From a bacterium (lineage in GTDB: Bacteria; UBP14; UBA6098; JAFGQG01): 20,834 bases of DNA. The DNA is taken from the NCBI GenBank assembly GCA_016930435.1, contig JAFGGQ010000023.1, positions 1 to 20,834 of the forward strand, written 5' to 3'. The first letter of the stretch is position 1. Each line of letters starts with the position of its first letter. The notes under the pieces were generated by a model. The model saw nothing but the letters and a program-made list of their open reading frames with translations. It did no database searches and was not told the origin of the DNA. The translations under genes and the position numbers were made by a program. This document shows, in pieces, positions 7,904 through 20,834 of the stretch.

Positions 7904-8407
7904 ATGTACGCAATTGCGAAAATAGGTGGAATGCAGTTCAAGCTACAGAAAGGGGAAAAAATAGCCGTCCCCAGAATGAATCAGAAAAAAGTCGGAGATA
8001 CAATCGAGATTGCCGAGGTTCTTCTTTTAAATGACGGTAATAAAAGCTATGTTGGACAGCCTTTTGTTGAGAAATCGAAGGTAATTGCTGAGGTCATTGA
8101 CCATATAAAAGACGATAAGGTTACCGTCTATAAGAAAAAACGCAGAAAAGGTTATTCAGTTAAACATGGTCATCGTCAGTTGCTTACCGAGATCCTCATC
8201 ACCGATATCATCATTCAGACCAAAACGAGCCATAAAAAAGATGCCGTTAAGGGGAAGATTGAAGAAGTCCCGGCGGAAGGTGAATCTGCTGATGAAGTGC
8301 TGTCTGAGGAAGCAATAGAGGAAACTGACCTTGATGAAAATGCTGAAGAACCCGGGGATAGCGATCTTACAGATGATACAGCCAAATCATCGCATGATGA
8401 ATCTTAG
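7904..8407 (+). CDS. rplU: 50S ribosomal protein L21 with an acidic C-terminal tail
   Basis: Residues 1-105 are a standard L21. It starts MYAIAKIGGMQFKLQKGEKI, has the GDTIEIAEVLLL strand, and carries the basic rRNA-binding stretch YKKKRRKGYSVKHGHRQ (76-92). L21 binds 23S rRNA in the large subunit. Bacterial L21 is usually close to 103 residues; this one runs to 167. The extra 62 residues are acidic and low in complexity, with repeated Glu/Asp-Ala patterns, and should be disordered. L27 (rpmA), normally the next gene, is absent here; bamA overlaps the end instead. AGGAGG five bases before the ATG supports the start. The last 14 bases are shared with bamA in another frame. Confidence 0.95.
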   Translation: MYAIAKIGGMQFKLQKGEKIAVPRMNQKKVGDTIEIAEVLLLNDGNKSYVGQPFVEKSKVIAEVIDHIKDDKVTVYKKKRRKGYSVKHGHRQLLTEILITDIIIQTKTSHKKDAVKGKIEEVPAEGESADEVLSEEAIEETDLDENAEEPGDSDLTDDTAKSSHDES

Positions 8408-10790
8408 ATATTCAGGATCAAAAATCTTTTTGCTATACCAGAATACCGGTAAAATCCTGCTGTTATTGATTTCTCTGGTTTTTGTATTATCAGTTCCGCT
8501 TAGGGCTGAGAACAATACTATTCTGTCTATTGATGTTCAAGGCAATAACGAGACCAGTATTAACCTTATTAAAGCAGCTTCTACCCTTAGCAGCGGTGAA
8601 AATTTTACCCTGGGTAATATTGAGCAGGCCGTTAAGAACATCTATCGAATGGGGATGTTCGAAGATGTTAAAATAGTAGGAGAACGTAGTCCGCAGGGCC
8701 TTAATGTAATCATCACCGTCAAGGAATACCCTCGCCTACAAAAAGTGGAATTTTCGGGGAATAAGGTGATCAAAGAGAAGAAGCTTTCAGAATCAGTATC
8801 CATCGATTCAATGGAATTTGTTTCTCCACAAAAAGTAAAGGAAGCCATTGTAACCCTTAGAAAGCTTTATCAGGAAAAGGGATATGTAAATTCGACTATC
8901 AAAACAGAGCCTTTTGAATCGAGTGGCAATCGTTTGATTCTCCGTTTTATTATTGATGAAGGGGAGCGGATAAGGGTGAAATCAATTGATTTTGAGGGGA
9001 ATAATTCCATATCCGGTAAAAAACTCCGGAAAAAGATGGAAACTCATCAAAAGGGTTTATTCAGGTCGGGTGAATATAACGAGGAAACGTTCCGGGAAGA
9101 CAAGAATACGCTGATCGACTTTTATCATAAAAATGGTTATATCAACGCCGAGATAATAACCGATACCAGTTGGGTAGCACCTAATGGTGAGGACCTGTTC
9201 CTTAAAATAATTTTTGACGAGGGCGACCAATATTATTTTGGCGAGGTTGATATATTAGGGAATTCGGTATTTCCAGTTGATAAGATAAAGGGTTCTCTGA
9301 CCTTTGAGAAAGGGGAAATATTCAGCAGTGAAAAATTAGAGGAAAGCCTTGCCAACATCTACTTTCTTTATCAGGAGGATGGCTATATCTTTACTCAAAT
9401 TAATGACCAGAAGGAGTTGGTTGACAGTAGTGCCAATCTGATTTTGAATATCTTTGAGGGCCAGCAAGCCAGGGTCAACCGCATTGATATCACTGGGAAT
9501 ACCCGTACTTACGAAAAGGTTATTCGGCGCGAATTTGCCATTCTGCCCGGTGAGGTTTTTAAGCGCAGCAAGCTGATCCGCACCCAGCGTAATGTTTATT
9601 ATCTGAACTATTTTGAAGATGTCCGTCCCGATTTTGAAGTTTTGGACAATGGGGATGTCAATCTGGAGATTCAGGTAGTGGAAAAGCCTATAGGCCGTTT
9701 TCAGGTTGGAGCAGGATACAATAGCCGGGACAATTTGGTGGGAACCATAAGTGTTGGCTGGCCCAATGTACTTGGCAGGGGCTGGGAAACCGAATTCAGC
9801 TGGGAATTCGGCAAGCAAAAGCAAAATTTGAGTTTCAGCTTTACCGAACCTTGGTTCCTGGACACGCCTACAACGGTTGGTCTGGATTTATATAATTCAC
9901 TTTGGAAATGGAGTAATTACTATACAGAGCAGAGAAGGGGAGGAGCCCTCAGGCTGGGTAGAAGATTGCGCTGGCCGGATGACTATTTCACCGTTTACTT
10001 ACGATACCGACTGGAACAGGTTAGTTACTTCGATTTTGACGATTCCTATACCCCCAGCTATGCCTACGATCTCCGTTCAATTGACTGGCCAAAGCTTCGG
10101 TCCGCAACCCGTTTTACTATTAAAAGGGACAGCCGGGATTCACAGTTGTTCGCTAATGAGGGAAATATGAATTCATATAGCATTGAATTCGCAGGGAATC
10201 TCCTCGGCGGGGATGAAGATTTTGAAATGCAGAGCATTCAATCCAATTGGTATTTTAAGATCTGGGAATACCTGATCTTCGTAACCAAAGTACGGTTCGG
10301 ATTCCTTACTAACTGGATGGGAAACCCTGATGATGTGCCCTTCGGGGAAAGGTTCTTTCCGGGTGGAGTAAGCTATGACGGACAATTGCGGGGCTATGAC
10401 GACCGTAAAATCAGTCCCATTGACTATACCGATGAAGAATTCGATTCTACGGTTACTCCGGATGCTTCCGGTGAATACCCGATGGATACACCAAGTTATC
10501 CCTTCCGCATAGGAGGAAGGGCAATGATGATCCTCTCCACGGAATTAAGGGTTCCTATTGCCAAAGACCAGCTTTATTTCTCAGTATTTTCGGACATGGG
10601 TAATTCCTGGCTGAGACCCAGCTACATGAGATCCAATGATCTCTATAAATCGGTGGGGGTTGGTGCCCGGCTGGTAGCCCCTCTGATAGGGGTTATCGGA
10701 TTCGATGCAGCATACGGACTGGATGATCTTAATGGTGATGGCGACCCGGAGGGTTGGAATTTTCACTTTCAGATCGGCCCAGAGTATTAA
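8394..10790 (+). CDS. bamA: Outer membrane protein assembly factor BamA
   Basis: The product has a signal peptide (basic start, hydrophobic core KILLLLISLVFVLSV, likely cleavage after A38 in LRA-EN). Five POTRA domains follow (about 41-113, 114-191, 192-278, 279-357, 358-431), each with a V..I...GN strand-turn and a GY/GMF helix end. A 16-strand barrel from about 435 carries the loop motif QLRGYDD (the VRGF/RGY region of Omp85 proteins) and ends in a C-terminal tyrosine. BamA folds and inserts beta-barrel proteins into the outer membrane. An in-frame ATG at 8331 would extend it by 21 residues without signal character and overlap rplU by 77 bases. I prefer ATG 8394 (or 8397), which puts the hydrophobic core near the start. 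No Shine-Dalgarno is clear there, so translation may depend on rplU. Confidence 0.95.
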   Translation: MMNLRYSGSKIFLLYQNTGKILLLLISLVFVLSVPLRAENNTILSIDVQGNNETSINLIKAASTLSSGENFTLGNIEQAVKNIYRMGMFEDVKIVGERSPQGLNVIITVKEYPRLQKVEFSGNKVIKEKKLSESVSIDSMEFVSPQKVKEAIVTLRKLYQEKGYVNSTIKTEPFESSGNRLILRFIIDEGERIRVKSIDFEGNNSISGKKLRKKMETHQKGLFRSGEYNEETFREDKNTLIDFYHKNGYINAEIITDTSWVAPNGEDLFLKIIFDEGDQYYFGEVDILGNSVFPVDKIKGSLTFEKGEIFSSEKLEESLANIYFLYQEDGYIFTQINDQKELVDSSANLILNIFEGQQARVNRIDITGNTRTYEKVIRREFAILPGEVFKRSKLIRTQRNVYYLNYFEDVRPDFEVLDNGDVNLEIQVVEKPIGRFQVGAGYNSRDNLVGTISVGWPNVLGRGWETEFSWEFGKQKQNLSFSFTEPWFLDTPTTVGLDLYNSLWKWSNYYTEQRRGGALRLGRRLRWPDDYFTVYLRYRLEQVSYFDFDDSYTPSYAYDLRSIDWPKLRSATRFTIKRDSRDSQLFANEGNMNSYSIEFAGNLLGGDEDFEMQSIQSNWYFKIWEYLIFVTKVRFGFLTNWMGNPDDVPFGERFFPGGVSYDGQLRGYDDRKISPIDYTDEEFDSTVTPDASGEYPMDTPSYPFRIGGRAMMILSTELRVPIAKDQLYFSVFSDMGNSWLRPSYMRSNDLYKSVGVGARLVAPLIGVIGFDAAYGLDDLNGDGDPEGWNFHFQIGPEY

Positions 10791-10821
10791 ACGCTTTTTT
10801 AGATGAACTTAATAGCATTGA

Positions 10822-10827
10822 AGGAGG
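10822..10827 (+). promoter_or_regulatory. Ribosome binding site that fixes the ompH start
   Basis: AGGAGG lies five bases before the ATG at 10833. An in-frame ATG at 10803 would add ten residues, place this site inside the gene and push the signal peptide away from the N terminus. The site therefore argues for 10833. Confidence 0.75.
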
Positions 10828-10832
10828 TTATA

Positions 10833-11363
10833 ATGTCAAAGTATTACCTAACTGTTATTACCATCGCCCTTGTCCTGGCTGCGAGCCTCGCTTTATCCCT
10901 GGCCCAGGATATGTCCATCGTTTATATTAACTCTGAACGTCTGCGAACAGAGTATTCTGCCTTTATCGACGCGCAGAATAAATTCGATTCAGAAGTCGCA
11001 GTTTGGGAAGAAGAAGCCACCGCCCTCGAAGGAGAATTAATCGATCTCCAGAAGGAATATGAACAGCAGGCTTTATTACTCAGCGAAGATAAGAAAAAGG
11101 AAAAACAGAGGCTTATCGAACAAAAACAGGAAGAATATCAAAATTATCTGTCTAACGTATTTGGCAGAGGTGGCCAGGCCGAAAAACGTAATACCGAACT
11201 AACCTCACCATTATTGGACAAGATTAATACCGTATTAGAAGAAATTTCTTTAAAAAACGGATATAGCGTTGTTCTTGATGCCGGCAGTGGCGCTATTGCT
11301 TATGCTGATGAAAACCTGGATATAACGGACCTCATACTGGAGAAACTAAATACCGGAGAGTGA
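10833..11363 (+). CDS. OmpH/Skp-family periplasmic chaperone
   Basis: The 176-residue product begins with a clear signal peptide (MSKYYLTVITIALVLAA, likely cleavage near SLA-QD at 24-25). A short beta strand (MSIVYINSERL) follows, then a long charged helical region (about 45-110, rich in Glu, Lys and Gln) and a C-terminal strand region with YSVVLDAGSGAIAYADE. This is the layout of Skp/OmpH, a trimeric jellyfish-like chaperone that holds unfolded outer membrane proteins in the periplasm and delivers them to BamA. Its position directly after bamA and before lpxD is the classic bamA-skp-lpxD order. The stop codon is three bases before the lpxD start, so the two are probably co-translated. Confidence 0.9.
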   Translation: MSKYYLTVITIALVLAASLALSLAQDMSIVYINSERLRTEYSAFIDAQNKFDSEVAVWEEEATALEGELIDLQKEYEQQALLLSEDKKKEKQRLIEQKQEEYQNYLSNVFGRGGQAEKRNTELTSPLLDKINTVLEEISLKNGYSVVLDAGSGAIAYADENLDITDLILEKLNTGE

Positions 11364-11366
11364 GCA

Positions 11367-12380
11367 TTGAAGCTCATTGAATTAGCTCAAGCTATCGGAG
11401 GGGAACTACGGGGCAACCCGGATCTGGAGATATTGCGGTTGGCTCCATTAGAAGAAGCTCAACCCGGAGACCTTTGTTTCCTGGGCAGTGGCAAGTACAA
11501 GGAATTTCTGAAGGATTGCCACGCTGCTGCTGTAATTATCAAACCGGAATTATTACCCGAAAAACACATTTTCAGCGCTATTTTACATCCCGATCCATCC
11601 GGGTGCTTGCGGACAATTCTGGAAATGCTGTATCCGGAGCAACCATTTGAGGCTTACCGTGACCCCACTGCGGTCATCTCTGCACAGGCAACTTTAGGAA
11701 AAGGGGTATTCATTGGGCCCTATTCAGTTATTGAAGATAATGTTAACATCGGTGATAATACCTTTATTGCGCCGCATTGTTACCTGGGTAATAATACCAT
11801 AATAGGGAAAAATTGCCGCTTATTCCCCGGAGTCAAGATATACAAAAACACCCGTATAGGCCACTCGGTAATAATTCATAGCGGTGTGGTTATTGCAGGT
11901 GACGGATTTGGATACACCCATCCGGATGAGGATGGTAAATGCCTGAAGATCCCTCAGGTTGGGGGAGTCCGAATCGAGGATAATGTTGAAATAGGTGCCA
12001 ATACAACCATTGATAGGGCAACACTGGGGGATACCGTGATCGGTAAGGGTACCAAAATTGATAATCTGGTTCAGATCGCCCATAACGTGAAAATCGGTCA
12101 AAACTGCTTGATCACATCCCAGGTTGGGGTAGCTGGAAGCACGGTGATCAAGGATCGGGTTATTATCGGAGGTCAGGCGGGATTTGTGGATCATATAGTA
12201 ATCGGACCCAATACCTTTGTGGGGGCTCAATCCGGAGTTAGCAAATCCTTTCCTGGAAACGGCTTTATATCCGGTTCCCCTGCAAAAGACCATCGCAAGT
12301 GGCTGAAGGAATGCGTTCTTATCTCCAAACTTGAAAAACTGTATGAAGAGCTTAAAGAGATTAAATCCAAATTAGAATAG
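11367..12380 (+). CDS. lpxD: UDP-3-O-acylglucosamine N-acyltransferase LpxD
   Basis: The 337-residue product is close to the usual LpxD length. Residues 1-100 form the uridine-binding domain (LAQAIGGELRGNPDLEI, PLEEAQPGDLCFL). Residues 101-290 are left-handed beta-helix hexapeptide repeats ([LIV]-G-x-x-x-x steps such as IGDNTFIAPH and IGANTTIDRAT). H239 in VQIAHNVKIG has the same number as the catalytic H239 of E. coli LpxD. A C-terminal helix pair follows. The enzyme adds a hydroxyacyl chain from acyl-ACP to UDP-3-O-acyl-glucosamine, the third step of lipid A synthesis, in the cytoplasm. The start is a TTG, which gives MKLIELAQ; GGAG at 11355-11358 is the likely ribosome site. Confidence 0.95.
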   Translation: MKLIELAQAIGGELRGNPDLEILRLAPLEEAQPGDLCFLGSGKYKEFLKDCHAAAVIIKPELLPEKHIFSAILHPDPSGCLRTILEMLYPEQPFEAYRDPTAVISAQATLGKGVFIGPYSVIEDNVNIGDNTFIAPHCYLGNNTIIGKNCRLFPGVKIYKNTRIGHSVIIHSGVVIAGDGFGYTHPDEDGKCLKIPQVGGVRIEDNVEIGANTTIDRATLGDTVIGKGTKIDNLVQIAHNVKIGQNCLITSQVGVAGSTVIKDRVIIGGQAGFVDHIVIGPNTFVGAQSGVSKSFPGNGFISGSPAKDHRKWLKECVLISKLEKLYEELKEIKSKLE

Positions 12381-12385
12381 AAATT

Positions 12386-13798
12386 ATGGACAAGATGCAG
12401 CGTACTATAAAAAAAGCGGTTTCTATTTCGGGGATTAGCTTGCATACCGGTAAACCAGCCCGTATAACCTTCAATCCTGCCCCGGAGAATAGCTGGTTTA
12501 AATTTATCCGGGTGGACCTTCCCGGAAAACCGGAAGTTCGGGTACAAGTCTCTAATGTCACAAACGACCTTTACCGAGGTACCAATCTGGAGGAAAATGG
12601 CGTCCGGATTAAGGTAACCGAGCACGTTTTAGCTGCCCTGTATGGATTGGAAATCGATAATGCAATCATTGAACTTGATGGTGAAGAGCCACCAGTGCTT
12701 GATGGCAGTTCCAAACCTTATGTTGACCTGCTACTTAAATCGGGTTTCCGGGAACAGCAGAAACCCAAGAATACATTTGATGTGGAAGATGTAATCCAAT
12801 ATTCACAATCAGAGCGAGGTACAGATATACATCTCATACCATACCGAGATTTTCGGATTACTTTCATGATAGATTTCCCCCATCGGGTTGTAGGTACGCA
12901 ATATACTACTATGGAATCCCTGGAAAGGGAATTCATAAAGGAATTCGCCCCTGCCCGTACTTTCGGTTTTCTCAGTGAAATGGAGCCATTACTGAAAAAG
13001 GGTTTGATAAAGGGTGCCAACCTGGATAATGCCATTCTCTTTGTGGATAATGAAGTAAGCAAGGATGAATTAACAGCTTTAAAATGCCATTTTAAGTTTC
13101 AGGACGATCTTTTTGTTGGGGAGAATCAGATACTGAACAACACCCAGTTGCGGTTCTATAATGAGCCCTGCCGGCACAAGGTTCTGGACCTTCTGGGTGA
13201 CCTTGCGTTGCTGGGATTTAATATCAAAGGCCATATTATTGCAGCGAGATCGGGCCACAGCACCAATATAGAGCTGGTAAAATTGATCAGGAAGCAATAC
13301 GAAAAGCAGCAAATTTCCAGAAAATATGGTGTTGATGATAAAAAAGTACTCCTTGATAACAAAGCCATTGAGAAGATATTGCCACATCGCTATCCATTTC
13401 TGTTAGTAGATAAAATAACCGATATTGAACCCTTTAAAAAAGTTGTCGGTATTAAGAATGTAACCCGTAATGAACCCTTTTTTGAGGGGCATTTTCCTGG
13501 TCATCCGGTGATGCCCGGTGTTCTGGTAGTGGAAGCTTTAGCCCAGACCGGCGGATTCCTGCTGCTGCAGGAGATAGAGGAAGTGGAAAAAAAGGTGGTT
13601 TATTTTTTGGGTATCGACAATGTAAGGTTTCGGAAACCGGTTTATCCGGGTGACCAGTTGGTTCTGGTTATAGAGGTGGATCAGAGAAGGCCTAAGGTAG
13701 CTAAATTTACCGGTAAGGCTTATGTTGACGATGAGTTGGTCTGTCAGGCTACCATGTTAGCCTCGGTAGTAGATAAAAAAACGATCATTCCCGATTAA
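12386..13798 (+). CDS. lpxC/fabZ: Bifunctional LpxC deacetylase - FabZ dehydratase fusion
   Basis: The 470-residue product joins two enzymes. Residues 1-305 are LpxC, the zinc deacetylase that commits UDP-3-O-acyl-GlcNAc to lipid A. VTEHVLAAL holds E79 and H80, CRHKVLDLLGDL holds zinc ligands H264 and D268, and SGHSTN holds H291, matching E78, H79, H238, D242 and H265 of the E. coli enzyme by pattern. After a linker (306-325), residues 326-470 are FabZ, the (3R)-hydroxyacyl-ACP dehydratase. ILPHRYPFLLVDKI opens it, and GHFPGHPVMPGVLVVEALAQ contains the catalytic pair H369 and E383, 14 residues apart as in the stand-alone enzyme. Such fusions are typical of Bacteroidetes and relatives. The fusion couples lipid A and phospholipid synthesis, since both draw on hydroxyacyl-ACP. 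It ends the + strand run. Confidence 0.96.
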   Translation: MDKMQRTIKKAVSISGISLHTGKPARITFNPAPENSWFKFIRVDLPGKPEVRVQVSNVTNDLYRGTNLEENGVRIKVTEHVLAALYGLEIDNAIIELDGEEPPVLDGSSKPYVDLLLKSGFREQQKPKNTFDVEDVIQYSQSERGTDIHLIPYRDFRITFMIDFPHRVVGTQYTTMESLEREFIKEFAPARTFGFLSEMEPLLKKGLIKGANLDNAILFVDNEVSKDELTALKCHFKFQDDLFVGENQILNNTQLRFYNEPCRHKVLDLLGDLALLGFNIKGHIIAARSGHSTNIELVKLIRKQYEKQQISRKYGVDDKKVLLDNKAIEKILPHRYPFLLVDKITDIEPFKKVVGIKNVTRNEPFFEGHFPGHPVMPGVLVVEALAQTGGFLLLQEIEEVEKKVVYFLGIDNVRFRKPVYPGDQLVLVIEVDQRRPKVAKFTGKAYVDDELVCQATMLASVVDKKTIIPD

Positions 13799-13810: not shown

Positions 13811-15961
13811 TTATTTCATTAAAACTATGCTCTGCATCGCGGAGTACTTCCCCAGCCTGAAAACAGCAAGGTAAACTCCCGCAGGTATCCTGCGGTTCAT
13901 TTTGTCCAAGCCATTCCAGAACAGTTCATATTTTCCGGGACCCTTAATAAAAGCATCTTTCAAGGATAATGAAGTTATCTTATGACCGGTGATCGCATAG
14001 ATTTGTACTTCATTATTAAGGTTTGGCACTATTCCGGGAAGATCTAAGACAAGTCGGGTTTCAGCATTGAATGGATTGGGATAAGCAGAAAGCTTATAGT
14101 AGGAAGAAGGTAGGAATTCGGGTTCTTCAGGAATACTGGCAAGAGAATTGTTAAAGACCAGAAAACCATATTCGTTTGCCAGGTAAACGGTGTTGGAAAA
14201 AACCGTAACCCCATTGGACTTGCCAGGAATTGAATAAAAACCATAGGATACCGGCGATTCCAGATCATCTGCATAATAAACCGCCTCAAGCCCCTCATCA
14301 TTCTCTGCAATATATAACCAGCCATCATCGACAGCAATACCATTGGCCTTATCTTCGGTCTCATATATGGTGATCAGGTCAGGGTCAGCGGGGTTGGATA
14401 CGTCAAATATATACACTCCATTATTTTCAGCGGCCACGAAGATAAGACCGCCTTCCTTGAGCATATCCACCGTTGACCAGCCGCTAAGCGGATAATGACC
14501 AACCAGCATCATGGTTACACGGTTGATAACGTACAAGCCTTCATCGTTATCAGAAAAGTAGAAATAATCTTCGGTTACTACCAACGCCCTGGCATGTGGG
14601 GAATTGTATTCGCCCATCGGTGTAGGCCGAGTAGGATTGGAGATATTTATCCTTTTAACCCCGATATTATCAACCGTTAAATAGGCAATATCGTCAACGA
14701 TGGCGATATCATAGCAAATACTGCCGGAAGAGTAGGAAGTGTCATAATCGGGATCGGTGATATCGGTTACATCTACGATTTGCATACCGTTATTGGAAGC
14801 CACATACATATAATCATCATAGATTGCAACATCCCGGAAAATAGCGGTCACGTTAAAATTGGAGATGGAGATGGGTTCTACTGGATTGCCGACGAATACG
14901 ATCTCGATCCCTCCGTTACGGCCTACCAAAAAAGCATATACATCGTGGACCAGGATCCGTCTCAGGTCATTGACCGGATAATCCCATCCATCGCGCCGTA
15001 TATCCGAGGGATCCGAAATATCCAGTGAGATCACGCCTTTTGTAACCGAAGCATAGAGATGGTCTTCGCTGACCAGCGCTAATTCCCGCACTCCAATACC
15101 CGAAATGCTGAACCAGTCTAACCGAGTTATGTCTGAAGGATGGGTAACATCGAAGACTTGCACTCCCTGATTATCGCAACCTGTAAAGACATAATTATCC
15201 TTGACTTCTACGGAGAAGACGGTAATGCTGGGGGATTCATAGCGATCTGTTTCGGTGGGATGAGCCCGATCGTGTACATCCAGAACAATAAGTCCGGATA
15301 CATCCGCAGCAAGGTATGCATAATCACCATTGACCGCAATCTGGTTTATTACGGTAAATGAAGAGTAAGTGCCAAGGTTGGAGGGATCTTCGGGGTCAGA
15401 GATATCCACGATCTGCATTCCGGAAAGGCCACGGGCAACGTAGAGATAATCTCCCTGGATGGTTAAATCCCAACCACCTCCGGCAAGATAATGGGAGGTC
15501 ACGGTCATAGGATGAGCCGGGTCGCTGATGTCTATTATATAAATTCCCAACAACTCGCCGGTTACTATGGCATAATGGTCTTTAATAACTACCCCGCTGA
15601 TTATATCAGAGGATTCCCAGACTGATACTACTTCCGGGAAAATCGGCCTGGAAACGTCCACGATAGCCAGACCTCCCCAACCCGCCGCAAGGTAAGCATG
15701 ATTCCCCGATACTGCCACTCGGCGGCCCTCCCCTTCTGCATAGGCAAGGCCTAAAAGAACCGGTTCACCCGGAATACTCACATCATAAATGCCTAAACCC
15801 AAAGTAAAAGCACAGTATAAACGAGAACCCGAACAAACGATCCCCTCAATATCAGACCATACAGAGCTGCCTAAAAGCTCTAATGGACAATCCTGAGAAA
15901 AACTTAAACCCAGGCTGCTTAGAATAACCAAGATTAGAAATAAGATTACATTTCGTTTCAT
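13811..15961 (-). CDS. Secreted LVIVD-repeat beta-propeller protein with C-terminal sorting domain
   Basis: The product is about 716 residues. A signal peptide (MKRNVILFLILVILSSLGLS, likely cleaved before QDCP) is followed by 13 full and two half repeats of about 42 residues (about 30-605) on the pattern G-x-x-IVDVS-P-x-x-P ... V.V.G.YAYLA. These are LVIVD repeats, each a propeller blade. The last domain (622-716) starts with AYPNPFNAETRLVLDLP and ends IPAGVYLAVFR...IVLMK, a FlgD-like or Por-type C-terminal domain that directs cargo to type IX secretion or cell-surface attachment in FCB bacteria. It therefore probably acts at the surface; its ligand is unknown. AAGGAG lies 10 bases before the ATG, and a GTG one codon upstream (15964) is an equally good start. 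Its stop is 12 bases from the lpxC-fabZ stop. Confidence 0.88.
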   Translation of the reverse strand: MKRNVILFLILVILSSLGLSFSQDCPLELLGSSVWSDIEGIVCSGSRLYCAFTLGLGIYDVSIPGEPVLLGLAYAEGEGRRVAVSGNHAYLAAGWGGLAIVDVSRPIFPEVVSVWESSDIISGVVIKDHYAIVTGELLGIYIIDISDPAHPMTVTSHYLAGGGWDLTIQGDYLYVARGLSGMQIVDISDPEDPSNLGTYSSFTVINQIAVNGDYAYLAADVSGLIVLDVHDRAHPTETDRYESPSITVFSVEVKDNYVFTGCDNQGVQVFDVTHPSDITRLDWFSISGIGVRELALVSEDHLYASVTKGVISLDISDPSDIRRDGWDYPVNDLRRILVHDVYAFLVGRNGGIEIVFVGNPVEPISISNFNVTAIFRDVAIYDDYMYVASNNGMQIVDVTDITDPDYDTSYSSGSICYDIAIVDDIAYLTVDNIGVKRINISNPTRPTPMGEYNSPHARALVVTEDYFYFSDNDEGLYVINRVTMMLVGHYPLSGWSTVDMLKEGGLIFVAAENNGVYIFDVSNPADPDLITIYETEDKANGIAVDDGWLYIAENDEGLEAVYYADDLESPVSYGFYSIPGKSNGVTVFSNTVYLANEYGFLVFNNSLASIPEEPEFLPSSYYKLSAYPNPFNAETRLVLDLPGIVPNLNNEVQIYAITGHKITSLSLKDAFIKGPGKYELFWNGLDKMNRRIPAGVYLAVFRLGKYSAMQSIVLMK
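14147..15874 (-). repeat. LVIVD repeat array, about 14 propeller blades
   Basis: Inside the minus-strand gene, about 42-residue units recur with a strand ending in IVDVS, IIDIS, IVDIS, VLDVH, VFDVT, SLDIS, IVDVT, RINIS or IFDVS, then a second strand ending in YLYVA or YAYLA. The array opens with the second half of a blade and closes with the first half of one, so the ends can pair to close the ring. The total is close to 14 blades, which fits two seven-bladed propellers in tandem. The repeats are diverged in DNA and visible only in the protein. Confidence 0.75.
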
Positions 15962-16012
15962 CACCTTTGCACTCCTTCAATAATTTAAGCGCTTTTAAAA
16001 AATAACGTTTGT

Positions 16013-16183: not shown

Positions 16184-16229
16184 ATAAAGTTAGTTATTTT
16201 TATGAATACCTAAATGCAGGAGAGTATTA

Positions 16230-19200
16230 ATGCGCCATTCAAATATTTACAGAATTTTACTATTAGGTTTATTATTTATATTTCCTATTGTACAAGTTGG
16301 GTTTAACGAGCCTTTAAGTTCAGGACCGGAACCTATAGACTATGCTTCCTGGAAAGCGGAAAGGGCTTTATTGGGTGAAGATGGTGGAGGAATTGCCCGG
16401 ACACTTGAACCGATGGAAGTAAGCTCCGGCAATGGTTATGTTCATGTTCGCATGAATCAGCCCGATGCCGAGTTTTTAGAAGGTGCGGATCCCAATGGAT
16501 TAAGTAACTACAAGCGTTTGATGTATAGTTATCCTGATTATTGGGGACCTATTTCTACTTCCTGGATACTCTACAAAGTCGATGGTTTTGCAGCCGATAA
16601 AACGGCCAGCGGCGGAGCGCTGGGTAATGCTGATCTTACCTACAATGATGCCGGTACATTAGTTGCGGTTTGGAATGATTACCATGGCGTTCGGATACAA
16701 CAGGAGCTTAGCCCGGTATCACTTGGTGCAAGTCCGGGTGACAACGAACAGATCCGTTTTAGGGTTAAGTTCACCCCTGTTGACGGTTCCTGCCATGATG
16801 TAGGCTGCATTATCCATTACGATACGATGCTTGACTCCGATGATGGTGCCTCTATTTCCACAGCATTTGGATATTCCGGAGTATCCGAGATATTTTACGC
16901 TCCCAGTATTCCTAATATCTGGCGGGCTTATGAGGGGGGTTATCCCCCGGTCCCAGGCAACCTTCAATCTTTGGGAATTCTGGTAGGATTCGAAGCGGTT
17001 ATGCCCGATATATTTTACTATGGCCGTTGGCCCGTTATATCCGGCTATGGTTGGGCACATGCATCATGGGAGATAGGCGTGGGATTCGGCGGTGATACCG
17101 CTGTACTGGTAAAATGGCTTCAACATAATGTATGCCCGGGAGATACCTTGACCTATGCAACATATTACGGAATCGGTGAACTCGCTTCTGTGTTGCTTAG
17201 TATCTCACACTCTCCCGCAACCATTTATTCCGGTTGCTATAGCTTTGCCCCTAACCCTATTACTATAGACGCTATAATTACCAACATCGGTGAAGATGAG
17301 GCAAACAATACCCAGGCCTGGATTGAATTTGACCGGCACGTCTTCTCTATCGCAACAGGCGATAGTCTTTTTAACCTGGGAACATTGGAAGATTTCGGGG
17401 GATCGGATACAGCTCGCTGGGTTTTGAACATCGAACCTGCATTGGAAGATACAATTATATGTTATACTGTTGCTGTTACCGCTGATGATATGGATTCCGC
17501 GATTTCCGAGGAATACTGTATTTACATACCACCTCGCAACGATTTTCGGATAAGCGCCGCAGCAGACGATTCCGCAATATGCTCCGGCGAATGCACACGG
17601 TTCAGGGTCGATGTGGATGGCGGCACCGAACCATTCTTTTTCGCCTGGTCGCCTTCACTTGGTATTTTGGATACTAACAATTATGAACCCTTTGTCTGCC
17701 CGGAAATTTCTGGTAGAGACACACTCCTGACCTATCGACTGATAGCTTACGATACCATGAATGGAGAAGTTGATTGTATCGATACGACTTATGTTGATCT
17801 CAGAGTACTGCAGGTACCTACGGGCACGGTTAATAATGACACTATCTGGTATGGGGAAGTAGGTACACTGACAGTAGTCCCGGAACCAGCTACTGGTAAC
17901 AGATATGAATGGAGTACATGGGATACTACTCAAAGCATTTTCGATAGCCCTCCGGTTACTTCCCAATACTATGTAACCATATATCATGGCATCTGTGTTT
18001 CTGAAGCGATCGCGGGAACCATTTTTGTGCTGACCGATACACTTCCGCCTGAAGGCGTTTTAATACTGCCGCTTCCGGATTCCTACTCGGCCTGTTCACT
18101 TCAGCAGATCATCGCGGCTTTCACAGACAACTGGAGCCTGGTAACCGATTCACTCATCCTGATTATTAACGGGGACACGATCCGGGGTGATTCTCCATAT
18201 ATAACCTGGCTGGGAGATTCCATGGCGGACACCATGGTCTTTAACCCACCACCCGGATATTTCAGCGATGGCGAAGTAGTCGAGGTTTTTATCCAGATGT
18301 TCGATTTCTTCGGAAACCCACTGAATGAACCCCTGATTTGGTCATTTATTATCGATTACAGCCCTCCGGCGGTTTGGGGAGAAATCCCACCGAACATAAG
18401 TGTCGTTACCGAAGGCGCACCTTCAATATCCGTTCATATTGCCGATAGCGGCAGTGGATTGGATCTGGACAACCTCGCCTTTGTGATCGAAGGGATTACG
18501 TATCCATACGGATCTACCGGAATTTTTTACAACCCGGCTACAGGGGAATTCCGATTTGAACCATCAGCATTGGGACTACGTTTTCTTGATGGTGATACTA
18601 TAAGGGTTTGCCTTACCGGTATCCGCGATCTTCCTGACTATTGCGGACCAAATACCGGCGATGATTATTGCTGGGAATTCTATATAGTGCTGTCAGCACC
18701 CTATGCGGTGATACAGGAACCCTATAATGGTACCTATTCAGCATGCAATGACCAGGGCGTTGTTGTCTATATTATCAACGATTATGATATCGATCCCGCT
18801 TCAATTCGATTTTCTGCTCGAGGGAGTACCTATGAGATATCCGATCCTGAATTGTCATTTTCCGATTCCCTATTGACCTATCAACCCTTACCAGGAACCT
18901 GGACCCATGCCGAAACGGTACTGGTCAGTCTGGATAGTGCGGACAATATTCATGGCTTTCACCTCACGGGAGCTCCCGTGGAGTGGGAATTCATTATTGA
19001 CCTTTCCGGCCCCCTTGTTACCGGTATTGATCCCGCGCCGTTTTCCGTCGTTCCGGATCCCTCACCATTGATCTCAATGATCCTTTCCGATGACTTAAGC
19101 GGGTTAGATGAGAGTTCAATCAACCTTACTGTCAATGGTATTTCCTATAGCAGCTCACATTTTGCCGTATTCTGGGACGGGGACAGCCTTGCCTTTGACC

Positions 19201-20834
19201 CCGTGTTACTGGGGATCAGCTATGGCGACGGGGATACAGTTAGAATATGTTTGCATGCCGAAGATTCCCCCGATTATTGCGACCCCAATGAACTTGACAC
19301 CTGCTGGTACTATATTATCGGTATTGAAGGGCCCGTAATGACAATCCTGGAACCCATGAATAACACTTACAGCTCCTGCGATGATCAGGCTGTACTGATT
19401 GCCCTGAATGATCCCGATGGAGTACAGGCTTCATCAATCGAACTGATAGTCCAGGGCATTCACTATGGGGTAAGCGACTCTCGGCTCCGCTTCCGGAACG
19501 ATACCTTGCGCTTTATCCCAAATCCAACCTGGTCTAATGGCGATATCATCGAAGTAATGCTTACGGTAGCAAATGATATTTATGGCAGCCCACTGCAGAA
19601 CCCTACTACATGGAGTTTTATTATCGACCTTCAACCGCCTGTTATCCAGAATACATCGCCCGAATACCTTATTGTAAACGATCCTTTAATACCTATTTCC
19701 GTAGAAGTTTACGATTCGCTTAGCGGTCTGGACCCGGCTTCAATTGCCCTCATCGTTAATGGCTTATCTTATTCCTCGATCTCCGCGGGTATCACTTTTG
19801 ACTGGGATTATTCGGGAGCGTTTCCTCTATTAACCGTTAATTTTGACCCCGCTCTGGCCGGAGTAAGTTTCACACATAACGAAACCGTGTACGTATGCCT
19901 GCAAGCGGGTGACGATCCCCATTATTGTGCCCCTAATGAGAACGAGATTTGCTGGGAATTCTTTCTGGACACCAGGGGCCCTTATTCCCGGCTCCTTACA
20001 AACATACATGGATTATTCTCAGCATGTTCCCTGCAAGGTTTCTCAATCGCTATCTGGGATACTGCTATTGCACACGGAGTGGATACAGCCTCAATTATCC
20101 TGAATATTAACGGGACTGACCTCAGTCTGGGTACACACCCCGATTTAACATGGTCAGGCGATACCCTGTTCTTCCAACCGTCAGTTCCCTGGGCTGATGG
20201 AGAAATTATCACAGCATATCTGACCGCAGCCCTCGATGCTTATGGCAATCCCTTAACCACCGCTGATACCTTCAGCATTACTATGGATCTGACTCCGCCC
20301 GTTATCTCTGCCATGGCTCCGGGACCGGGCTGGGTAATCGAGGATACTGACCCCATCATTAGTTTTATAATCCTCGATATTCTTAGCGGAGTTAATTACG
20401 ACGGCGTGATCGTCGAAGTCAATGATACTATGTATGACCTGTCTAATCCGGAGTTTTCACGTGCAGGGTCACTTTTTACCTTTGATGTTAGCATTTCCAC
20501 TACCATTGACTTGACCGGAGGGGATACGGTAACCGTGTGTGTTTTTGCAGCCGACATGCCAGATACCTGCTCCCCAAACAGGATGGAATACTGCTGGGAG
20601 TTTTCTCTTTCACGGGGGGGACCGGTAGCCCACGCTGTAGAGCCACTGGAATCCCTTTATTCCGCTTGTGACAGCCAGAGCATTATTATTGATCTGGCCG
20701 ATTCCAATGGCATCGATGAATACACGATCGAACTCGAGATCAATGGTGTAGTTTATCATATTTATAATCCGGAACTTGAATATGTGGGAACATCACTGAT
20801 ATTTACTCCTATACCGCTATTTCCAAGCGGGGAG
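16230..20834 (+). CDS. Giant secreted repeat protein with Ig-like modules, 3' end missing
   Basis: I read this frame codon by codon: it opens with ATG at 16230, five bases after AGGAGAG, and has no stop in 1535 codons up to the last base of the window. Residues 1-25 are a signal peptide (RILLLGLLFIFPIV). Residues 30-300 are a beta-rich domain I do not recognise, with a DTMLDSDDGA segment at 198. Residues about 325-435 look like a CARDB or similar adhesion-type sandwich (ITIDAIITNIGEDEA). Residues 439-601 look like two PKD/SprB-type domains. From residue 607 two module types alternate to the window edge. There are no catalytic motifs and no membrane helix after the signal. It is probably an extracellular adhesin or surface-layer filament; a C-terminal sorting domain would be expected beyond the window. 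The divergent neighbour encodes another secreted protein. Confidence 0.9.
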   Translation, partial: MRHSNIYRILLLGLLFIFPIVQVGFNEPLSSGPEPIDYASWKAERALLGEDGGGIARTLEPMEVSSGNGYVHVRMNQPDAEFLEGADPNGLSNYKRLMYSYPDYWGPISTSWILYKVDGFAADKTASGGALGNADLTYNDAGTLVAVWNDYHGVRIQQELSPVSLGASPGDNEQIRFRVKFTPVDGSCHDVGCIIHYDTMLDSDDGASISTAFGYSGVSEIFYAPSIPNIWRAYEGGYPPVPGNLQSLGILVGFEAVMPDIFYYGRWPVISGYGWAHASWEIGVGFGGDTAVLVKWLQHNVCPGDTLTYATYYGIGELASVLLSISHSPATIYSGCYSFAPNPITIDAIITNIGEDEANNTQAWIEFDRHVFSIATGDSLFNLGTLEDFGGSDTARWVLNIEPALEDTIICYTVAVTADDMDSAISEEYCIYIPPRNDFRISAAADDSAICSGECTRFRVDVDGGTEPFFFAWSPSLGILDTNNYEPFVCPEISGRDTLLTYRLIAYDTMNGEVDCIDTTYVDLRVLQVPTGTVNNDTIWYGEVGTLTVVPEPATGNRYEWSTWDTTQSIFDSPPVTSQYYVTIYHGICVSEAIAGTIFVLTDTLPPEGVLILPLPDSYSACSLQQIIAAFTDNWSLVTDSLILIINGDTIRGDSPYITWLGDSMADTMVFNPPPGYFSDGEVVEVFIQMFDFFGNPLNEPLIWSFIIDYSPPAVWGEIPPNISVVTEGAPSISVHIADSGSGLDLDNLAFVIEGITYPYGSTGIFYNPATGEFRFEPSALGLRFLDGDTIRVCLTGIRDLPDYCGPNTGDDYCWEFYIVLSAPYAVIQEPYNGTYSACNDQGVVVYIINDYDIDPASIRFSARGSTYEISDPELSFSDSLLTYQPLPGTWTHAETVLVSLDSADNIHGFHLTGAPVEWEFIIDLSGPLVTGIDPAPFSVVPDPSPLISMILSDDLSGLDESSINLTVNGISYSSSHFAVFWDGDSLAFDPVLLGISYGDGDTVRICLHAEDSPDYCDPNELDTCWYYIIGIEGPVMTILEPMNNTYSSCDDQAVLIALNDPDGVQASSIELIVQGIHYGVSDSRLRFRNDTLRFIPNPTWSNGDIIEVMLTVANDIYGSPLQNPTTWSFIIDLQPPVIQNTSPEYLIVNDPLIPISVEVYDSLSGLDPASIALIVNGLSYSSISAGITFDWDYSGAFPLLTVNFDPALAGVSFTHNETVYVCLQAGDDPHYCAPNENEICWEFFLDTRGPYSRLLTNIHGLFSACSLQGFSIAIWDTAIAHGVDTASIILNINGTDLSLGTHPDLTWSGDTLFFQPSVPWADGEIITAYLTAALDAYGNPLTTADTFSITMDLTPPVISAMAPGPGWVIEDTDPIISFIILDILSGVNYDGVIVEVNDTMYDLSNPEFSRAGSLFTFDVSISTTIDLTGGDTVTVCVFAADMPDTCSPNRMEYCWEFSLSRGGPVAHAVEPLESLYSACDSQSIIIDLADSNGIDEYTIELEINGVVYHIYNPELEYVGTSLIFTPIPLFPSGE
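18048..20834 (+). repeat. Alternating A/B module supra-repeat, four full units and part of a fifth
   Basis: Units start near 18048, 18696, 19329, 19977 and 20619, giving 216, 211, 216 and 214 residues. Each unit is an A module of about 105 residues followed by a B module of about 110. A modules start with a GP...EP...YSAC signature, and most end in W-[SE]-FIID-x-x-PP (FSITMD in unit 4). B modules have D.-SG-[LV]-[DN] near the start, then GDTVRVCL-type strands, a DYC-x-PN turn and CWEF. Cys codons of the A signature sit at 18093, 18744, 19377, 20025 and 20667. The DNA is too diverged to be a recent tandem duplication, so the array is old and kept by selection. Confidence 0.85.

Follow-up and report, generated by a model that had tools for sequence, protein, structure and literature searches.

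A giant protein with a predicted Ig-like stalk and supersandwich head, a probable type IX secretion cargo of UBP14

The type IX secretion system (T9SS) is known in outline, and two of its described type B cargo systems come closest to the protein analyzed here. SprB of Flavobacterium johnsoniae is a very large surface protein and T9SS type B CTD cargo (PMC9143113, PMC12618676), and in Porphyromonas gingivalis a complex of PorE, PorP and PG1035 brings together type B cargo, a PorP-type barrel and an OmpA-type peptidoglycan-binding domain (PMC9143113). Descriptions from Bacteroidota treat the barrel and PorE, the OmpA-type wall binder, as separate proteins, for which a static cell-wall complex has been proposed (PMC9143113, PMC12618676). 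UBP14, or Candidatus Idrufiota, comprises genomes of 1.29-3.98 Mb (review, PMC11382960), and a search of the literature on T9SS in candidate phyla returned nothing on UBP14. Here, we describe a gene at the edge of a 20,834-nucleotide window, which is the whole of contig C27 in a UBP14 genome of 2.85 Mb in 180 contigs. Its product is one of dozens of such surface proteins in this bacterium and shows at full length one of the giant proteins that account for much of what this little-studied phylum secretes.

The host had been taken for an uncultivated diderm in a first-pass annotation of the window. This fits the BamA-, LpxD- and LpxC/FabZ-like genes upstream and the encoded SprA, and the closest relatives that carry a name likewise come from metagenome assemblies. 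By eye, BamA-, OmpH/Skp-, LpxD- and LpxC/FabZ-fusion-like genes stand in a row at 8331-13,798, a sign of a lipid A outer membrane. They are followed on the minus strand (13,811-15,964) by a gene for a 717-aa LVIVD-repeat protein with a YPNPFN tail, which matches the T9SS type A tail model at 17 bits (curated cut-off 23).

The frame under study starts with an ATG at 16,230 on the plus strand and runs for 1535 codons up to the contig end at 20,834 (1543 codons if measured from stop to stop); it contains no stop codon because the assembly of contig C27 ends there. A ribosome binding site, AGGAG, is found at 16,218-16,222 (+), seven bases ahead of the ATG. Both the uninterrupted frame running off the window and the good ribosome site of the first-pass annotation were thus borne out. 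Scans for promoters and terminators gave counts close to the shuffled level. The frame is not a product of chance, since the joined protein described below agrees with an ortholog at 1372 of 2323 aligned columns, and the frame itself has 109 matches within its own genome. The gene is real and intact, and the window encodes the first two thirds of its product, which is 2333 residues long.

The missing end was traced to contig C79. The final 49 bases of C27 (20,786-20,834, +) overlap in frame with the end of C79 (minus strand) at 47/49 identical positions, and a genome search returned this as their sole other match. Reading through C79 (L032:2087-4528, minus strand) supplies 798 further residues, with A/B pairs 5-7 and a C-terminal type B signal, and reaches the stop codon that had been sought beyond the window, giving 2333 aa in total. 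The ortholog (L056, JAFGQG010000198.1) is an unbroken frame of 2335 residues that starts at its own contig edge. The joined protein aligns with it from end to end (59% identity, eight gap positions). Because the overlap reaches both contig ends, the ortholog aligns across the junction without a gap there and a leuS-like gene (named by reading) comes next in both genomes, the join is very likely right. The overlap is just 49 bases long with two mismatches, and A/B paralogs are abundant in the genome, which could mean that C79 instead carries the end of some paralog and that the true tail lies elsewhere; given the same three observations and the lack of any other genome match to the overlap, we consider such a misjoin hardly credible.

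A C-terminal sorting domain, which the first-pass annotation had proposed to look for, is indeed present. CHU_C (PF13585) matches the end of the C79 continuation with 39.4 bits (cut-off 27), at about aa 2238-2333 of the joined protein, and is assigned to the window gene via the C27-C79 join; the L056 ortholog scores 37.4 bits. The NCBI model TIGR04131 covers positions 4-85 of 85 on the C79 tail at 26.1 bits, under its cut-off of 35. A conserved cysteine opens the type B tail (SC..NPFTPN) and another lies near its end (VCNGT) in L032:2087-4528 (-), L056:2-7006 and L042:2049-4910 (-).

The genome also encodes machinery for such a tail. Its SprA matches TIGR04189 with 661 bits (cut-off 200), and SprA_N was detected in 14/17 UBP14 genomes, including all nine high-completeness ones. 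PorV-family proteins are encoded as well, and the C25 peptidase family, of which PorU is a member, is represented by 15 matches. With the model for T9SS type A tails 150 matches were obtained and with the CHU_C type B model 21, so that secreted cargo makes up a large share of the 2.85-Mb genome. For the motor protein PorM/GldM, a single Pfam model (PF12081), run without a positive control genome, gave matches in 0/17 UBP14 genomes.

Based on these findings, the protein is most likely a shuttle-anchored T9SS type B surface protein and probably an adhesin; its acidic, lysine-poor composition agrees with this reading. The signal peptide would bring it to the periplasm, where the SprA/Sov translocon would recognize the C-terminal type B signal; a PorP/SprF-type barrel would then receive the protein and hold its C-terminus at the outer membrane. 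There it would probably be fixed to the wall and not moved, because in UBP14 such barrels carry an OmpA-type peptidoglycan-binding domain in the same chain. Seven Ig-like A/B pairs would form an extended stalk that holds the supersandwich head off the cell, and the head would probably bind a polymer or a neighbouring surface. The intact frame, the join, the domains, the type B tail and the SprA and PorP-like genes are computational results, and surface location, anchoring, the extended shape, the shuttle used and adhesion are what we infer. Speaking against the shuttle-anchored reading are the location of the tail on a separate contig, joined through 49 bases with two mismatches, the TIGR04131 score below its cut-off, a leuS-like neighbour instead of a shuttle, and PF12081 in 0/17 genomes.

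The N-terminus of the protein consists of a likely signal peptide (aa 1-25; 16,230-16,304, +), read by eye from MRHSNIYR, with its basic residues, and the hydrophobic stretch after it, and of the head domain (aa 26-318; 16,305-17,183, +), folded from about aa 60. Three smaller domains follow on the same strand: a beta domain at aa 319-437 (17,184-17,540), which is common to five paralogs, a domain at aa 438-530 (17,541-17,819), which had been named PKD-like, and a domain at aa 531-603 (17,820-18,038) related to the region with Ig_7 repeats in paralog L021. The earlier description of a modular layout holds for one head followed by an A/B array. The CARDB-like assignment of the beta domain is weak, with 12.7 bits against a Pfam cut-off of 22.7 (PF07705), and the PKD-like one has no Pfam match.

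Four complete Ig-like A/B pairs lie within the window on the plus strand (18,039-18,698, 18,690-19,331, 19,323-19,979 and 19,971-20,621), and of pair 5 the contig end leaves just the opening portion of its A domain (20,613-20,834). In the joined protein, the seven pairs occupy aa 604-1912 and 2017-2234, separated by about 105 residues without domain assignment. The repeat exists at the protein level only; Tandem Repeats Finder detected no DNA repeat in the window. For pair 3, two beta sandwiches were predicted (pLDDT 97.5), in line with the beta-sandwich folds expected in the first-pass annotation; Foldseek matches were Ig-like structures of many kinds, and a sequence search of an A/B unit against the Protein Data Bank gave no match. 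The nearest named family is Big_5 (PF13205), which likewise consists of Ig-like repeats and matches one B domain on C79 (26.4 bits, cut-off 23.6) and several paralog units. In contrast to Big_5, the window part stays below the cut-off (17.8 bits), A and B types alternate and cysteines are conserved.

A/B units are present in all 17 UBP14 genomes examined, and 139 A/B matches were counted in the genome of the window gene. So large an expansion, together with the acidic and lysine-poor composition of the joined protein (pI 4.05, 0.5% K), might also fit an S-layer-like structural coat, in which the acidic Ig arrays would pack with dozens of paralogs and the head would serve assembly instead of adhesion to foreign targets; the Deinococcus HPI S-layer protein (8cka) was returned at rank 25 when the A/B unit was searched with Foldseek. 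However, Ig folds are so widespread that this match counts for little. An S-layer is usually built on one abundant protein, whereas the paralogs here vary greatly in sequence (mostly 30-45% identity) and in length (from several hundred to about 4100 aa) and carry type A or type B tails. We therefore rate a structural coat as an improbable alternative to the shuttle-anchored cargo. The proposal of a large filamentous adhesin or surface-layer protein is thus supported by the CHU_C tail, the Ig-like folds and the predicted all-beta head as far as a surface protein is concerned; of the two, an adhesin is the more probable. The array itself looks old and not homogenized, as different A/B units share mostly 30-45% identity compared with 59% overall to the ortholog.

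The head of this protein belongs to a domain family without a name. No Pfam model matched it above any cut-off, and a sequence search of the Protein Data Bank returned one chance hit only (E 0.58). For this N-terminal domain, listed as unknown in the first-pass annotation, AlphaFold predicted an all-beta supersandwich (pLDDT 87.6, pTM 0.83). Structurally, it came closest to a chain from the chloroplast NDH-PSI supercomplex (Z 16.4 and an rmsd of 3.1 across 211 residues), followed by galactose mutarotase (GalM; Z 15.8) and cellobiose phosphorylase N-domains (Z about 15). The predicted fold is accordingly galactose-mutarotase-like, as in GalM, the N-domains of GH94, GH65 and GH116 and the YidC periplasmic domain (Z about 15-16 across roughly 200-230 residues at 6-12% identity); unlike these domains, the head lacks a sequence family match and sits on a predicted stalk, and no catalytic domain was recognized alongside it.

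A profile built from a three-row alignment was used to scan the genome collection and detected the head family in all 17 UBP14 genomes examined, with at least three matches each. Some of its members, such as L039, end in type A tails, whereas the window protein, L021, L031 and L042 combine the head with type B tails. One 1081-aa paralog with the same head (L025:2287-5529) shows no recognized tail and has a C25 peptidase in the next frame. Among fifty members from the own and related genomes, D173, W250, D264 and W271 (head-domain numbering) do not vary and W206 and D180 hardly do, but no His or Glu is invariant, the best conserved being H164 (88%) and E210 (72%). Mutarotase-type catalysis is therefore unlikely. 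The resemblance to galactose mutarotases and to GH94, GH65 and GH116 N-terminal domains could still suggest a sugar-acting enzyme or enzyme subunit displayed on a stalk. GH94 and GH65 enzymes have their catalytic barrel in a separate domain; no such domain was recognized in this protein, and YidC and copper amine oxidase share the supersandwich fold, which is thus no proof of function. Considering also the missing invariant His/Glu, we find a displayed enzyme decidedly unlikely.

More unusual than the window protein itself are the OmpA-fused shuttles, which are often found directly 3' of type B cargo genes. The PorP/SprF shuttle model PF11751 has seven matches in this genome and is present in all 17 UBP14 genomes, mostly in frames of 850-1070 aa. 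In three examples of the own genome (L031:12260-15178, L034:5966-7999 and L042:1-1902), a PorP/SprF barrel, CARDB and an OmpA domain were seen directly in one polypeptide, each directly downstream of a type B tail gene; judging from their length, the remaining shuttles are probably such fusions as well. Across 10 genomes, we counted 18 pairs of type B gene and shuttle with the shuttle downstream on the same strand and at most 800 bases from the tail, and no other arrangement occurred among the compared rows, a subset of the type B list. The window gene has no shuttle beside it; a leuS-like gene follows instead. A PorV-family match on C79 was considered as its shuttle and rejected, as it has no PorP match.

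Taken together, the analysis names a fold for the head and provides a testable export and anchoring route for the giant proteins of UBP14. Tentatively, these elements may belong to a divergent T9SS in UBP14, in which shuttle and wall anchor form one polypeptide (PorP/SprF barrel, CARDB, OmpA), the usual PorM/GldM motor is missing or unrecognizable and the phylum-wide supersandwich-headed, Ig-stalked family is among the main type B cargo, although we regard this broader scheme as doubtful. The barrel-OmpA fusions beside other type B genes support the proposed PorP-PorE-type wall holding of non-moving type B proteins (PMC9143113, PMC12618676), with support that probably comes from outside Bacteroidota.

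Compared with the described systems, the UBP14 protein shares with SprB of F. johnsoniae (PMC9143113, PMC12618676) its very large size, a predicted surface role, a likely signal peptide (here by eye), a C-terminal CHU_C/type B domain, and SprA and PorP/SprF proteins in the genome. It differs in its probable phylum, in having a repeat type and a head domain of its own, and in the absence of an adjoining shuttle gene; at the level of the system, the UBP14 shuttles bear an OmpA domain and no PorM/GldM match was found. In its missing neighbour, the window gene resembles the orphan type B substrates of F. johnsoniae, which share a distant shuttle. The nearest parallel for anchoring is the PorE-PorP-PG1035 complex of P. 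gingivalis (PMC9143113), which has the same three components, whereas in UBP14 the barrel and the OmpA-type domain are joined in a single polypeptide.
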